Shown here in pieces: positions 1 to 21,720 of a stretch of DNA of 45,172 nucleotides. This stretch comes from Desulfurellaceae bacterium. GTDB lineage: Bacteria > Desulfobacterota > Binatia > Bin18. Below the pieces are notes generated by a model. The model made no database searches and had not been told where the DNA came from. It worked only from the letters and a program-made list of their open reading frames with translations. The DNA lies in the NCBI GenBank assembly GCA_021296095.1, contig JAGWBB010000026.1, forward strand, positions 1 to 45,172. The letters are read 5' to 3'. How positions within the stretch are numbered: position 1 is the first letter of the stretch; every line of letters starts with the position of its first letter. Both the position numbers and the translations under genes were made by a program.

Positions 1-416
1 GGTCCCGTTTGGATATCCCCACCGCCGCGATGACAAGCGATCCCGAGCGTGGTGTATTCCCAATCCTCAGGGAGAGGGTCAAACAGTTGCTCCCCCGTCC
101 CACCCTGCTCTTCCTTCTCCACTAGCACCACATGCTCCGCTTCAATCTGTTTGTGGAACGACTCGGGGACGGCGTCCCACACGAAGAGATCCACCCGAAA
201 CGGCAGGGCGCTTTCCTCAAAAGCATCCCGGAGAGCGGAAACTCCACGCTCCTGCGCCGGTGTTGTGAAGACCACCATGTCCAGATCGGACTGTGGGCGC
301 GCGTTCCATGTGGCGCGGGAGCCGTACACCCAGGCGGTGGTATTCGGCAGATGCTTTCTGAGCAAGGCCAAAATGATCTTGCGCTGAGCGGCAGTAATGT
401 CGATGGCGTTGTTCAT
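1..416 (-). CDS. MNT nucleotidyltransferase (MntA-like) fused to start of type I specificity subunit HsdS; partial at window edge
   Basis: Translating the minus strand from the ATG at 414-416 gives an open frame of 138 codons running off position 1. Residues 1-100 are a minimal nucleotidyltransferase domain: GS at 32-33, exactly ten residues, then D44-L-D46 (the GSX10DXD signature of MntA antitoxins), with a third acidic residue D76 in FRVDLF. From about residue 114 the same frame reads LPEDWEYTTLG, then GGGDIQTG, which is the opening of a typical HsdS target-recognition domain. The ATG overlaps the stop of the upstream HEPN gene as ATGA (413-416), implying translational coupling. In known HepT/MntA pairs the MNT protein AMPylates and neutralises the HEPN RNase; HsdS gives DNA specificity to type I enzymes. 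The fusion is seen directly. How much of HsdS follows, and whether hsdR lies beyond, is not visible. Confidence 0.8.
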   Translation of the reverse strand, partial: MNNAIDITAAQRKIILALLRKHLPNTTAWVYGSRATWNARPQSDLDMVVFTTPAQERGVSALRDAFEESALPFRVDLFVWDAVPESFHKQIEAEHVVLVEKEEQGGTGEQLFDPLPEDWEYTTLGIACHRGGGDIQTG

Positions 417-829
417 TCCCATGTCTCTTGGGTCATGGTTTGATATAGGCCAATGGCATCGTCAATAAAATCACTCATCAGCTCGCGCGCAAAATCCGCC
501 TTCCTGCCGCTGTAGTCATGTGTCGTTCCGATCCGGGCATCCATGTATTTCAGCCATTGCTCAATCGGTGATGAAAATAATTCATTTTCAGACGCCAGTT
601 GGAAAATCCGCTTCGGGCTGTTGGGAACATCAGGAATGCCCAATTCCTCCTGTAGATAGCGTTTGAGAACTTTCCACAGACTGTCATAACAGGTTTCAAA
701 ACGCTGGATGACAGACTCAGCGACGGCTTCCTTGTTAAGCTCGGAGAGAGTAGCGTCGAGGTTTTGGTAGTTTGCGTGCTGCACCTCAAGGCGCTTGAGG
801 GACAGCTGAAACTTGTCGTAAGCGATCAC
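413..829 (-). CDS. HEPN-domain protein, HepT / HI0074-like nucleotidyltransferase partner
   Basis: 138-residue all-helical protein of the nucleotidyltransferase-substrate-binding (HI0074) / HepT type. Residues 99-106 read RIGTTHDY, an exact RX4HXY motif. In HepT toxins this motif is the RNase active site, and its tyrosine is the AMPylation target of the partner MntA. The partner with an intact GSX10DXD signature follows immediately with a 4-bp ATGA overlap. It lies 106 bp downstream of hsdM and upstream of the MNT-HsdS gene, so the toxin-antitoxin pair sits between hsdM and hsdS. Family identity is well supported by the motif, length and partner. Whether it acts as a toxin, or only as the non-toxic HI0074-type partner, is inference. 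Confidence 0.8.
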   Translation of the reverse strand: MIAYDKFQLSLKRLEVQHANYQNLDATLSELNKEAVAESVIQRFETCYDSLWKVLKRYLQEELGIPDVPNSPKRIFQLASENELFSSPIEQWLKYMDARIGTTHDYSGRKADFARELMSDFIDDAIGLYQTMTQETWE

Positions 830-1197
830 AGGACCACCTCAGATTCCTCGCCAATCAGGCCATCGCAGCTGCTCGCGTATACTGGCTCTTATCAATGTAT
901 TCGGCCTCTGTTTCTGAATCTCAGTGACCAGTGTCTCAGTTGGACTTCTTTAACTCTCCACCGCCGCCAAAACCAAGATGCCTCAGATTCTCTGCGATGG
1001 CCGCATCCAGCTTTGCACCTTCGGCTTGCTGTTCCCTCAGTTGCGCCACCAATCGTTGCATCTTGTGCTCGAACGGCTCGTCGTCGGCCTCTTGCGCCTC
1101 CGCGCCAACGTAGCGACCGGGGGTCAGCACATAGCCGTGCTTGCGTACCTCTGCCAGGGAGGCGCTCTTGCAGAAGCCGGGGGTGTCGGCGTAGGCG

Positions 1198-1240
1198 TTG
1201 ACACCCTCACCCCGGCCCTCTCCCTTCAAGGGAGAGGGAG
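1198..1240. repeat. Palindromic intergenic-type repeat inserted in frame within hsdM
   Basis: Perfect inverted repeat with arms CCCTCTCCCTT (1216-1226) and AAGGGAGAGGG (1228-1238), embedded in the C-rich stretch from 1201. Read on the minus strand it encodes [13 protein letters not shown] inside HsdM, between the YHAWR segment and the [19 protein letters not shown] block, where ordinary HsdM has only a short linker. This repeat type is normally dispersed between genes in environmental genomes. Confidence 0.75.
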
Positions 1241-1757
1241 TAGGAGGAGACTCTACCTGCGAGGGAGAAGAGGGGAAGTTGCGCCAGGCGTGGTAGGTGT
1301 CGGCGATGCGGGCGATGTCGGCGTCGGTCAGTTCACGGTGGGTGCGGTCCACCATGCGGCCAAGCTTGCGGGCGTCGATGAACAGGATTTCGCCGTGCCG
1401 GCCGCTGGACTGTCTGTTTTTGCGGTTGCGGGCCAGAAACCACAGGCAGGCCGGAATCTGGGTTGAATAGAAGAGCTGGCCGGGGAGCGCCACCATGAAG
1501 TCCACCAGCCCGGCTTCGATCAGGCTTTTTCTGATGTGCCCCTCGCCCGACTGGTTGGACGACATGGAACCGTTGGCCAGCACGAAGCCGGCCGTACCGG
1601 CCGGTGCCAGGTGGTGGACGATATGCTGCACCCAGGCGAAGTTGGCGTTGCCCTTGGGCGGGGCGCCGTACTGCCAGCGCTTATCTTCGGTCAGCCGTTC
1701 GCCACCCCAGTCGGAGATGTTGAAGGGCGGGTTGGCCAGGATGAAGTCGGCCTTGAG

Positions 1758-1771
1758 GTCGGGGGTCGGGG
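1758..1771. repeat. 7-bp tandem duplication (GTCGGGG x2) that breaks hsdM
   Basis: Two exact head-to-tail copies of GTCGGGG occupy 1758-1764 and 1765-1771. Removing one copy restores the conserved HPDLKAD...NPPF reading frame of hsdM. A 7-nt unit shifts the frame by +1, so copy-number slippage would toggle HsdM between on (one copy) and off (two copies). Confidence 0.9.
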
Positions 1772-2488
1772 TGACGGTCGGTGTGGAAGGTGTCGCCGTG
1801 GGCGATCTGGCCCTCGATGCCGCGAATGGCGAGGTTCATCTTTGCCAGCCGCCACGTCGTGTAGTTCGACTCCTGGCCATAAATTGAGATGTCGGCCTTG
1901 ATGCCCTGCGGTGCGCCGCCACCATTGCCGTTGCCAGATTGATGGGCGCGGATGAACTCGACCGACTGCACGAACATGCCGGAGGAGCCGCAACACGGGT
2001 CATACACCCGGCCTTGATAGGGCTCCAGCAGCTCGACCAGCAGCTTGACCACGCAGCGCGGGGTGTAGAACTCGCCGCCCTTCTTGCCTTCGGCGCTGGC
2101 GAACTGCGACAGAAAGTATTCGTACACGCGGCCCAGCACGTCCTTGGAGCGGGCCGCGGCGTCGCCGACCTGGATATTGCTGATGAGGTCGATGAGTTGG
2201 CCGAGCCGCTGCTTGTCGAGCGCCGGGCGGGCGTAGTCCTTGGGCAATACGTCTTTGAGCGCCGGGTTGTCGCGCTCAATGCCGGTCATGGCGCTGTCAA
2301 CAAGCTGGCCGACTGTGGCCTGCCGGGCCTGGGCCTTGAGATGCCCCCAGCGTGCTTCGGGCGGCACCCAGAAAATGTTCTCGGCGCGGTACTCGTCCGG
2401 GTCTTCGGGGTCGGCGCCCTGGTCCTGCTCGCCTTCGAGACGGGCGTGCATCTCCTCGAAGGCGTCGGAGATGTATTTCAGAAAGATG

Positions 2489-2520
<32 letters not shown>

Positions 2521-2668
2521 GTCCATGCTGCCGCGTAGGGCGTCGGCCATGCTCCAGAGTTCGACTTCATAGCCGGTCGTCGCATCATGGGCGGTGGCCT
2601 GCGAGTGATCGTCTCGTGTCTTCTGTCCCCGTGCCACATCCTTTCCTTCCGCTTGAATAGAGGCCGGT

Positions 2669-8225: not shown

Positions 8226-9569
8226 ATGGCTGAGACCCGCGAGCAGACCCGACATGTCGTCCGTGATGTGTACGACTTTATCGGTGAACACCTGTACCTG
8301 AACCGTCCCGACCTGGACCTCGGCGGAGAAAAACTGAACTCGACCCTGCTGTTCAGTCTGCTGACCGCGCTGCTGGGTGGCAAAGCCCTCATCATCGGTG
8401 AGCCGGGTCTGGGCAAGACCACCTCGGCCGAATACATCGCCTCGCTGTTGTACCGCATCCCACTCGGCGTCATCTGGGGCAGCCAGGTCGCCGGCCACCC
8501 CGAACAGACCGAAGAGAAAATCATCGGTCGGCCCAATCTGGGCAAGCTCAACCAGGGCGAAGAGCATGTGGTGTGGAGCAATTTCGCCCAGTTGCCGGTC
8601 AAGATCATTGACGAGATCAACCGCCTGCCCGAGACCAAACAGAGCCTGATTCTCGACGGTGTTGACCGCGGCAACTGGGAGTACCTGAACCAGTTCCTGC
8701 TCCACGACGAGTACTGCCTGTTTGCCACCGCCAACTACCAGGACCCCGGCACCCATCCCCTGATCCCGCCCCTGCTCGACCGCTTTGACGTGATGATCGA
8801 GTCCAAACATCCGGGCGCCAACCTGGCCTTTTTCATCGGCCAACAGGAGAACAAAGAAGACCTGCTGCGCAATCCCGCGCAGGAGCAGGACTTTTACGCC
8901 GTGCTGGGCGACGACCAGGTGTCGGCCGGCCAGGACGCCCGGCTGGAAGACGCCTGTCAGCGTTTTGCCGAGTGGTTGTCCGACCGCCACGGTCTGACCA
9001 CCTTCGGCAAGGCCGAGCGCCAGGCGGTACGGGAAGACATTGCCGGCATCGGCTTCAGCCAGGACGCCAGCGCCTTTGCCCGGACGGCCCTGGCCGAGTT
9101 TTCGTTCTGCTGTTTATACGGCCAAAAACGCTCGAACGAAGAGTGTCCCGAGGGCTGCCACTACACCGGCTATCTGTGCTACCAGGTCCAGAACTGCGCC
9201 TCAAACCGGCTGCCGATTTCCCTGCGCCGCTACGCCCAGGCGCTGGTCTGGTTTCTGGGCGCCGAGCAGGTCGAGGCCGAACACGTGCGCTGGGTGCTGC
9301 CCTTTATTCTCGCCCACCGCACCCAGTGGCGAGACGCCTATGTCGCCGCCCGGGAGCGCGAGTCCCGCCGCGACCCCCTGCCGCTGCATCTGGCCAAACA
9401 GGCCACGGCCGAGAGCTGGCGGCGCTTTGCCGAGCAGCGCGAAGACATCATGGGCGCGCTGGCGGTCGCAGCCCGCATTCTGGCCGGCGAGGACGTGCAG
9501 CCGAGCCAGGGCGACCATCCGATCTTTGCCGAGATTCAGCGCGACCTGGGAATCGAGACGGCATGGTAA
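8226..9569 (+). CDS. MoxR-like AAA+ ATPase with cysteine-rich insertion
   Basis: 447 residues. Walker A is GEPGLGKT (58-65) and Walker B is IIDE (127-130), followed by INRLPETKQ. The sensor-type segment FATANYQDPGTHPLIPPLLDRFDV (165-189) is typical of MoxR ATPases, which work with VWA proteins to remodel or metallate client enzymes. The C-terminal half is longer than usual and holds six cysteines (295, 296, 307, 311, 318, 324) with a His at 312 in about 30 residues. This could be a zinc or Fe-S site and is not a standard MoxR feature that I know. The ATG follows GGGAGTG. Its stop overlaps the next gene's start (ATG at 9563), and the third gene encodes a VWA protein, the usual MoxR partner. 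The client is unknown. Confidence 0.88.
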   Translation: MAETREQTRHVVRDVYDFIGEHLYLNRPDLDLGGEKLNSTLLFSLLTALLGGKALIIGEPGLGKTTSAEYIASLLYRIPLGVIWGSQVAGHPEQTEEKIIGRPNLGKLNQGEEHVVWSNFAQLPVKIIDEINRLPETKQSLILDGVDRGNWEYLNQFLLHDEYCLFATANYQDPGTHPLIPPLLDRFDVMIESKHPGANLAFFIGQQENKEDLLRNPAQEQDFYAVLGDDQVSAGQDARLEDACQRFAEWLSDRHGLTTFGKAERQAVREDIAGIGFSQDASAFARTALAEFSFCCLYGQKRSNEECPEGCHYTGYLCYQVQNCASNRLPISLRRYAQALVWFLGAEQVEAEHVRWVLPFILAHRTQWRDAYVAARERESRRDPLPLHLAKQATAESWRRFAEQREDIMGALAVAARILAGEDVQPSQGDHPIFAEIQRDLGIETAW

Positions 9570-10354
9570 ACCCGTTTGCCGAGTTCCAGACCTATCGGCC
9601 GTGCCAGCGCAGCCTGCCGCTCGACCGCATCATCGCCGTCCGGGACGCGATTCTGGAACAGCTGGTGGGCAGCTATACGGCCTATATCGACCAGACCGAG
9701 CTGGACTGGGAGCAGCTGCCCGACCCCCGGCCGGTTGAACGCGCCTATCAGAGCGCGCTGCGTCACGTGGCCGGCTTGACGTACAACCACGACGACATCG
9801 AGGACTTCTGTTTCAGCCTGGAACAGCTCCACACACCGGCGGCCGCCCACAATCTGCCGGACGACTCACCCAGTCTGTGGGGCCTGTCCGGCCTGTACCT
9901 GTCGGCCCTGTGCAACCAGACCGCCAGCCGCCAGGTCCAGCTGCGCCTGCAGTGGATGCCGGCCCGGGTGCATCTGCTGGGCTATCAACTCCCCGCCGGC
10001 AAGCGTCTGGACATCGAGGGTCTGTGTGGCGACTTCCTGGGCATGGCGCTGGCCGGCGGAGAAATCAGCTTGCAGGGCAGCGCCTTTCATGGCGTCGGGT
10101 TTGCGTTGCAGCGGGGCAAGATAGTGATCTCCGATAACGCCGGCGAAGATGTCGGCCAGGACATGATCGGCGGAGAGATCCACGTCCTTGGCGGCCGGAT
10201 TCGGGGCGTCGGTCGGGTGCGGGGCGGCAGCGTTTATCTGGGCCAGCGGCGGATCGCTCTGGCCGAGTCGAGCGAGCAAAAAGAGAGCGGTGCTGACCAA
10301 TCCCCGGGCAAGAAGACAGCACCGCTCTCTTTCAAGGAGCGGGCGGACGCATGA
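9563..10354 (+). CDS. GXGXG-motif beta-helix protein (FwdC / GltB C-terminal-like)
   Basis: 263 residues, starting at ATG 9563 inside the last codons of the ATPase gene (7-nt overlap). The N-terminal 150 residues match nothing I recognise. Residues about 160-232 form successive Gly-rich turns, e.g. GSAFHGVGFALQRGKIVI, NAGEDVGQDMIGGEIHVLGG and GVGRVRGGSVYLG. This is the repeating GxxxGxxMxGGxIxVxG pattern of the right-handed beta-helix in formylmethanofuran dehydrogenase subunit C and glutamate synthase C-termini. In those enzymes the domain is structural and channels or scaffolds cofactor subunits. Here it stands alone between an AAA+ ATPase and a VWA protein. The last 25 residues are encoded by a perfect inverted repeat and are probably unstructured. 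Role unknown; a client or scaffold of the ATPase-VWA pair is inferred. Confidence 0.7.
   Translation: MVNPFAEFQTYRPCQRSLPLDRIIAVRDAILEQLVGSYTAYIDQTELDWEQLPDPRPVERAYQSALRHVAGLTYNHDDIEDFCFSLEQLHTPAAAHNLPDDSPSLWGLSGLYLSALCNQTASRQVQLRLQWMPARVHLLGYQLPAGKRLDIEGLCGDFLGMALAGGEISLQGSAFHGVGFALQRGKIVISDNAGEDVGQDMIGGEIHVLGGRIRGVGRVRGGSVYLGQRRIALAESSEQKESGADQSPGKKTAPLSFKERADA
10280..10332 (+). promoter_or_regulatory. Perfect 16-bp hairpin overlapping the GXGXG gene end, just upstream of the VWA gene
   Basis: Arms AAAGAGAGCGGTGCTG (10280-10295) and CAGCACCGCTCTCTTT (10317-10332) pair perfectly across a 21-nt loop. The AAGGAG ribosome-binding site of the VWA gene begins two bases later and its ATG is at 10351. 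The stem lies within coding sequence, followed by only three T's, so it is more likely a translational or mRNA-stability element, or an inserted mini-repeat, than a full terminator. Confidence 0.75.
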
Positions 10355-21481: not shown

Positions 21482-21568
21482 GGAGAGGTGCCAGAGTGGC
21501 CGATTGGGCACGACTGGAAATCGTGTGTACCTTTACCGGTACCGAGGGTTCGAATCCCTCCCTCTCCG
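21482..21568 (+). tRNA. tRNA-Ser (anticodon GGA)
   Basis: Acceptor stem GGAGAGG (21482-21488) pairs with CCTCTCC (21561-21567), discriminator G at 21568. Anticodon stem-loop CACGA-CTGGAAA-TCGTG gives anticodon GGA, reading UCC/UCU. A long variable arm (GTACC/GGTAC stem) is typical of class II tRNA-Ser. T-arm GAGGG-TTCGAAT-CCCTC. CCA is not encoded. The 3' end abuts the SRP RNA gene. Confidence 0.97.
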
Positions 21569-21570
21569 TC

Positions 21571-21684
21571 AGTGGTGATAGCTAGGTCCTGCGCAAGGGA
21601 GTTCGGGAACCCCGTCAGGTCCGGAAGGAAGCAGCGGTACCGATTTCATCTCTGTGCCGCAGGGTAGCCTAGCTATCACCACTG
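21571..21684 (+). ncRNA. ffs: Signal recognition particle RNA (bacterial small SRP RNA, 4.5S type)
   Basis: The apical domain motif GTCAGGTCCGGAAGGAAGCAGC-type loop (about 21614-21635), which binds Ffh and promotes FtsY association, is present. The 5' and 3' ends pair over 19 perfect bases (21568-21586 with 21668-21686), giving the expected single rod of about 110 nt. It lies between tRNA-Ser and dnaX, a common bacterial order. The outermost pairs extend to the tRNA discriminator base, so mature ends are uncertain by a few nucleotides. Confidence 0.95.
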
Positions 21685-21720
21685 ACGGCAGAAGGGCGGC
21701 TCTCCGCAGCGTTGCTAGCC

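Follow-up and report, generated by a model that had tools for sequence, protein, structure and literature searches.

A putative HEPN toxin and its nucleotidyltransferase partner, the latter fused to the HsdS specificity subunit, in type I restriction-modification operons

Here we establish that a nucleotidyltransferase (MNT) domain forms the N-terminus of the specificity subunit HsdS in type I restriction-modification operons that also encode a HEPN protein, together with the order of these operons, the conservation of the motifs of both partners, the wide distribution of the fusion and the predicted folds of its parts. The reading we favor, to which we give a probability of roughly 60%, is that HEPN is a toxin and that the MNT domain on HsdS is its AMP-transferring antitoxin, the antitoxin being thereby wired onto HsdS. 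On this reading it is the antitoxin, not the toxin, that is fused, and its partner is the subunit that gives both methyltransferase and endonuclease their specificity: the toxin-antitoxin pair and the restriction enzyme are physically tied together in a defined manner, and records from 16 named phyla carry the fusion.

The window (the whole stretch of 45,172 nucleotides that was analyzed) is an entire contig (C26 of genome G000) of a draft genome of 4.3 Mb in 185 contigs, and its base 1 is the contig end. Its minus strand carries a type I operon in the order hsdM - HEPN - MNT·hsdS, interrupted by that end (Table 1). The original prediction held that an intact GSX10DXD nucleotidyltransferase domain reads without a stop into the start of HsdS, and that a HEPN gene with an exact RX4HXY motif follows hsdM and overlaps the fused frame by ATGA. 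The first part is borne out by the sequence, by Pfam and by full-length relatives, the second by the RIGTTHDY motif, the overlap at 413-416 and the HsdM domains upstream. The ATG at 416 is the MNT start that agrees with relatives in the alignment, that at 422 being an alternative, and the frame is open down to base 3. In the hsdM upstream of HEPN, Pfam identifies HsdM_N (E 2.9e-28) and, twice, N6_Mtase (E 1.1e-42 and 9.6e-40); its first part is 82-93% identical to the hsdM of fusion-carrying relatives. The type I gene set of the window thus consists of a frameshifted hsdM, a feature absent from the original prediction, and the start of hsdS; hsdM, hsdS and hsdR are complete in L044, L047, L058, L082 and other loci. 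A search for the remainder of hsdS on the other contigs of the genome gave only two HsdS matches, both at other loci with their own starts. Because the contig begins at base 1 and both matches belong to other loci, the remainder of the window hsdS and hsdR are unreadable.

Table 1. Features of the operon in the window, with the basis on which each was assigned.
Feature	Position	Strand	Basis and remarks
MNT domain reading into in-frame HsdS start	3..416	-	Incomplete at contig end; alternative start 422; open frame
Start of first HsdS recognition domain (LPEDWEYTTLGIACHRGGGDIQTG)	3..71	-	Similarity to HsdS N-termini; junction position as in full-length fusions
GSX10DXD nucleotidyltransferase motif (GSRATWNARPQSDLD)	279..323	-	Sequence; third acid in VDLF
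ATGA stop/start overlap of HEPN with MNT·HsdS	413..416	-	Sequence; HEPN TGA overlaps MNT ATG at 416
HEPN gene, HI0074 / NTase_sub_bind family, predicted RNase toxin	413..829	-	PF08780 E 2.7e-18; AlphaFold2 model
RX4HXY motif (RIGTTHDY), RNase motif and AMPylation tyrosine	512..535	-	Sequence
QxxE (QRFE), spacing as in L. pneumophila HEPN Mg-binding Q44/E47	695..706	-	Motif spacing; PMC11586414
hsdM 3' part, after frameshift	936..1631	-	PF02384 E 9.6e-40
hsdM 5' part, before frameshift (HsdM_N and start of N6_Mtase)	1681..2637	-	PF12161, PF02384
7-bp tandem duplication (CCCGACC x2) shifting hsdM frame	1757..1770	-	Alignment to four relatives

The MNT domain of the window is recognized by two Pfam families, in both cases beyond the cut-off (Polbeta, PF18765, E 1.3e-10; NTP_transf_2, PF01909, E 9.7e-7), and the G, S, D and D of its motif are invariant in all nine sequences of alignment A1. 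On the NCBIfam model MntA_antitoxin it scores 42.4 bits against a cut-off of 60: judged by profile score, it is related to that model but no assigned member. It also matches positions 2-101 of the PADLOC model Specificity_I (PDLC03138), which is labelled solely as a type I specificity subunit; since the first 100 positions of that model match MNT, the fusion is already contained in PADLOC, unremarked. The sequence beyond the MNT domain is short. The tail LPEDWEYTTLGIACHRGGGDIQTG matches the HsdS N-terminus of the Streptomyces plasmid pM92 weakly (61% over 23 aa, E=6) and resembles WSTTTLGEICDRVGGIIQTGPFGSQLHQSDY of genome G244, a short match, weak alone, that lies inside a disrupted HsdS gene. 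When the MNT tail was the sole query, six of seven weak matches outside the window fell in no HsdS gene, and one of these weak matches was to a different enzyme (64% over 14 aa). While the short matches are weak individually, assignment of the tail to the start of HsdS is secure because full-length relatives show the fusion.

The HEPN gene encodes 138 aa with no further domain; the N-terminal ABC-type NTPase of the PrrC type is absent. The protein scores 66.6 bits on PF08780 (cut-off 31.8) and 47.4 bits on TIGR01987, just under the cut-off of 55.8, and its AlphaFold2 model (pLDDT 95.5) matches HEPN toxin and HI0074 structures. Of the CHARACTERISED systems, HI0074 is nearest by HEPN profile (E 2.6e-37); Thermus homologues and the HEPN of L. 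pneumophila (E 7e-18) come next, and the match to Shewanella HepT is far weaker (E 0.008). In L. pneumophila HEPN a QxxE pair, Q44/E47, is reported to bind Mg, cleavage being Mg-dependent (PMC11586414); the equivalence of the QRFE of the window to this pair is set by motif spacing, not by structural superposition.

An open frame that runs into a contig end could be an artefact of that end, or could have arisen by chance; both are ruled out by full-length fused relatives. In relatives of the same family and class, complete MNT·HsdS frames of 523-738 aa follow hsdM and HEPN. Matches from an MNT-seeded search of related genomes sit within long open frames, and Pfam places nucleotidyltransferase and Methylase_S (PF01420) domains in the same proteins. 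Judged by PF01420 and an HsdS fold, the full-length fusions of relatives fit a type I HsdS, which has two recognition domains and conserved spacer helices. Two fused relatives come from one-contig genomes (G007 and G078, the latter without most of HEPN). On the Zymomonas mobilis plasmid pZMOB01 the gene after HEPN encodes a 527-aa fusion, called simply subunit S in the annotation, and hsdR comes next; gene order is the same on the Acetobacter pasteurianus plasmid pAPA01-020, but MNT and S occupy separate, neighboring frames there and S is disrupted.

A scan of approximately 85,000 species genomes yielded 169 relatives, the best 80 of which were analyzed. Homologous fusions, which the original prediction expected in other genomes along with an upstream HEPN gene and hsdM, were found in 54 of these best 80; HEPN lies directly upstream in 52 of the 54 and hsdM, by domain annotation, in 51. 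The two fused loci without HEPN are L060, where a contig end intervenes, and L076, where an unrelated frame (Abi_2-like by eye) occupies the HEPN position. HEPN and MNT·HsdS overlap by 8 nt in 19 and by 4 nt in 14 of 52 fused loci (33/52 together). Among the 26 non-fused loci of the best 80, 24 are stand-alone dyads in which hsdM was undetected, only L115 having other restriction genes nearby; the other two (L092 and L109) are cut by a contig end and have hsdM upstream. The fused records span 16 phyla by NCBI names, some of which may reflect contamination because the records are mostly metagenome-assembled. The distribution is patchy: in a sample of 297 genomes from the phylum of the window no full-length MNT·HsdS match to PDLC03138 was found. 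In a tree of MNT domains, fused forms are scattered among stand-alone ones, and the well-supported branches require the 'fused' label to change at least eight times; the tree is built on few columns and does not indicate the direction of change. A search of viral contigs with the window protein gave no confirmed relative. A HEPN-seeded search in the class of the window found hsd-linked HEPN loci (L153 and L159-L165, a small number) that all retain an adjacent MNT, fused in every case but L164, where MNT stops before hsdS.

Structure prediction gives a picture of how the two parts are joined. In the AlphaFold2 model of a 524-aa fusion (L053), MNT residues 1-98 have pLDDT values of about 90-97 and are followed by a linker (103-111) at pLDDT 43 and then by the HsdS fold; the overall pTM is 0.44, so the placement of the domains is unreliable. 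By Foldseek, the MNT part resembles HI0073 (TM 0.95) and MNT antitoxins, and HsdS structures match the remainder. As modelled, MNT looks like a complete, compact and autonomous domain, tethered to the first recognition domain by a flexible linker. In-frame start codons are present in 36 of 45 fusion linkers, 12 with a Shine-Dalgarno-like stretch, and hence some HsdS may be made without MNT.

A further expectation was that the active-site motifs would persist in relatives, and they do. The R, H and Y of the HEPN motif are kept in 50, 50 and 51 of 52 fused loci, figures free of search bias, while the MNT figures (G, S, D and D in 54/54, and a third acid, D or E, likewise in 54/54) are partly biased by the search. 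The Q and E of QxxE are kept in 46 and 49 of 52 fused-locus HEPNs. This conservation speaks against the notion that MNT and HEPN, rather than being antitoxin and toxin, make up a two-part nucleotidyltransferase whose modification of a restriction subunit, or of some other substrate, regulates restriction. HI0074 was originally named a nucleotidyltransferase substrate-binding subunit, and the toxicity of fused members is a prediction; yet L. pneumophila HEPN, from the same branch, is a toxic RNase whose tyrosine is AMPylated by its own MNT (PMC11586414), and we regard this notion as very improbable. A Mantel test for HEPN-MNT co-evolution gave r 0.52 for MNT-HEPN vs 0.62 for MNT-HsdM and 0.63 for MNT-HsdR: being no higher than the latter two, the first carries no pair-specific signal beyond shared operon history.

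Comparison with known systems refines the identity of the pair, which had been put down as HepT/MntA. The HEPN/MNT anatomy of that assignment stands, but the branch does not: by sequence the window pair appears to belong to the HI0073/HI0074 branch (PF08780), with the L. pneumophila HEPN-MNT as nearest tested pair and the Shewanella HepT/MntA more distant. H. influenzae HI0073/HI0074 (PDB 1no5, 1jog) are separate genes, unlike the fusion, and HI0073 is the nearest sequence of known structure for MNT (E 1.4e-15), as HI0074 is for HEPN by profile; no toxin assay of this pair was found in the literature examined. The L. pneumophila pair (lpg2920/lpg2921; PDB 8xdj, 8xeh) resembles the fused loci in having HEPN first and MNT second (with an overlap of 8 bp), in both motifs, in an MNT without a long C-terminal helix and in the branch of its HEPN; its MNT, however, is a free protein, and the word restriction is absent from the paper that describes it (PMC11586414). 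The type VII toxin-antitoxin HepT/MntA of Shewanella oneidensis shares the motifs and presumably the AMPylation chemistry, but has the MNT gene first, an extra C-terminal helix on MNT, a more distant HEPN and no fusion to a restriction protein. PrrC, encoded with the type IC enzyme EcoprrI, is likewise a HEPN-type RNase in an hsd operon that is silenced via the restriction enzyme, but it lacks an MNT and brings an ABC-type NTPase domain of its own, and its inhibitor is the enzyme itself and not a fused AMP-transferase. In CRISPR type III, a PDB chain considered here by its name (9z7q_I, 'Cmr1-MntA') indicates that attachment of MntA to one component of an immune complex is already known in another setting. 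In a 2013 survey (PMC3710099) restriction-linked HEPN RNases were proposed as second-line effectors; fusions to nucleases, helicases and ATPases were noted there, not to methylases, and the word HsdS is absent. Reviews PMC12707154 and PMC3874165 mention neither HEPN nor nucleotidyltransferase, and no description of an MNT·HsdS fusion was found in the open literature searched, subscription papers and preprints lying outside that search.

The favored reading may be set out as follows. A type I restriction-modification operon would embed a toxin-antitoxin pair, the antitoxin being part of the specificity subunit. The HEPN gene product would be an RNase, translated immediately ahead of MNT·HsdS via overlapping stop and start codons; MNT, as the N-terminal domain of HsdS, would move AMP from ATP onto the RX4HXY tyrosine of HEPN, thereby silencing it. 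Because most or all HsdS bears MNT, the supply of antitoxin would equal that of HsdS. If HsdS were lost, shut off, degraded or blocked, fresh HEPN would stay unmodified and its cleavage of RNA would halt the cell. The benefit under selection would probably be a second line of defense behind restriction, similar to that of PrrC, plus resistance to loss of the operon. The core of this reading rests on conserved anatomy and on tested relatives, in which toxicity and neutralization by covalent AMPylation of the HEPN tyrosine are described (PMC7641770, PMC11586414); RNase activity and AMPylation are carried over from those relatives, and the probability of the core, about three in five, is set with this in mind. 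The stop/start overlaps, the PrrC precedent, the MNT-HsdM fusion in L043 and Cmr1-MntA speak for the reading; the patchy distribution, the linker start codons that may yield HsdS free of MNT, the covalent nature of silencing and the variants discussed below weigh against it. The trigger, and an anti-phage role for the fused module, are matters that we infer only.

One candidate for that trigger is the restriction complex itself: HEPN would be silent only as long as MNT sits in the assembled complex, and would be released when an anti-restriction protein from a phage disturbs that assembly. PrrC offers a precedent, since EcoprrI keeps it silent and T4 Stp activates it (PMC3710099, PMC12707154), and a guard of the PrrC kind is plausible. 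Moreover, dyads adjacent to hsdM are fused in every fully readable locus of the scan while stand-alone dyads lie away from hsdM; addiction could be had from operon linkage alone, so the physical joining suggests that the complex is being sensed. The wiring in L043, where HsdM carries a second MNT that comes with a HEPN of its own, also fits a guard. But relatives silence their toxin covalently, and toxin once modified would not become active again through dissociation alone, and the modelled linker is flexible and MNT seemingly autonomous. The window (broken hsdM) and L043 (broken hsdS, lacking most of both recognition domains) nevertheless keep HEPN and MNT intact, from which it follows that an intact methyltransferase seems unneeded for neutralization. 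Covalent silencing and these natural variants argue against a simple model in which the complex disintegrates and the toxin is freed, and we consider so strict a dependence on assembly unlikely.

The natural variants bear equally on a second possibility, namely that the module merely stabilizes the restriction operon against loss, senses nothing, and through the fusion makes hsdS indispensable. Losses and mutations hit HEPN and in no fused locus break MNT: HEPN is lost in G078 (L037) and in L076, and single active-site substitutions are found in five further loci (L079, L093, L104, L113 and L118; in L079 another HEPN, motif present, lies upstream). This asymmetry is biased, because the loci were found via MNT. 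The retention of the MNT frame in L043, from which most of both DNA-recognition domains are gone, and the broken hsdR of L062, L070 and L086 beside an intact HEPN, point the same way. Set against this, repeated fusion would be needless, since operon linkage alone gives addiction. Stabilization of this kind is a serious possibility that falls short of being probable.

Under the favored reading, loss of the antidote and loss of the part that targets restriction would be one event, in many unrelated bacteria, and the fusion makes the hypothesis of a coupling between immunity and suicide directly testable. Genes annotated 'restriction endonuclease subunit S' can hide an antitoxin, and therefore deletion of hsdS in such strains could be toxic. 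The boldest extension is that type I enzymes of a widespread class guard their own HsdS: HsdS would be an AMP-transferase that silences a co-encoded RNase, interference with HsdS by phage, or the loss of HsdS, would arm an abortive response, and the MNT-HsdM fusion seen at one locus would represent an independent second wiring of this kind. This extension is doubtful at present.

Several loci show additional rearrangements. In L037 (7700-8420; G078) a frame resembling an ORF6N-domain protein replaces most of HEPN, leaving a 3' HEPN remnant and an intact MNT·HsdS. In L043 (3632-5695; Magnetococcales) the second MNT forms the N-terminal end of its HsdM fusion and is preceded by its own HEPN; the operon is shared with the MNT·HsdS depleted of recognition domains. 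Two or three HEPN genes accompany a single MNT·HsdS in L111 (576-1902), L079 (6079-7008) and L100 (1349-2327), and the fused operon of L120 is followed (8814-9946) by one more HEPN-like gene and by a gene for a double-MNT protein whose second domain lacks the catalytic motif. Within the family of the window, four loci (L033, L034, L036 and L039) have a nuclease-like DUF559 domain (PF04480) of approximately 105 aa inserted in frame in HsdS, past the first recognition domain and spacer helix; a similar DUF559-like insert is seen by eye in the hsdM of L092. The insert looks like a dispersed coding repeat.

The hsdM of the window is split into two frames by a perfect 7-bp duplication, each of the four aligned relatives being one unit shorter. 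The duplication could reflect genuine mutation, slippage that can revert, or faulty assembly. Were it real, the locus might be a decaying relic, as would accord with a low-complexity insert in the C-terminal region of the same gene. Against decay, both HEPN and MNT are still intact, and the tandem repeat might revert, or might stem from misassembly of a draft genome; we see a relic as conceivable, but lean the other way. The conclusion drawn from the relatives is unaffected by the status of this one locus.

Two minor observations concern sequence in the window itself. The low-complexity insert in hsdM (1201-1260) is in frame and resembles an interspersed palindromic repeat read as coding sequence. 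Far from the operon, at 21482-21702, a tRNA-Ser (gga) stands immediately before the RNA of a signal recognition particle; since the tRNA already contains the first bases of the Rfam large-SRP match, the real SRP RNA is probably a shorter hairpin that follows the tRNA.
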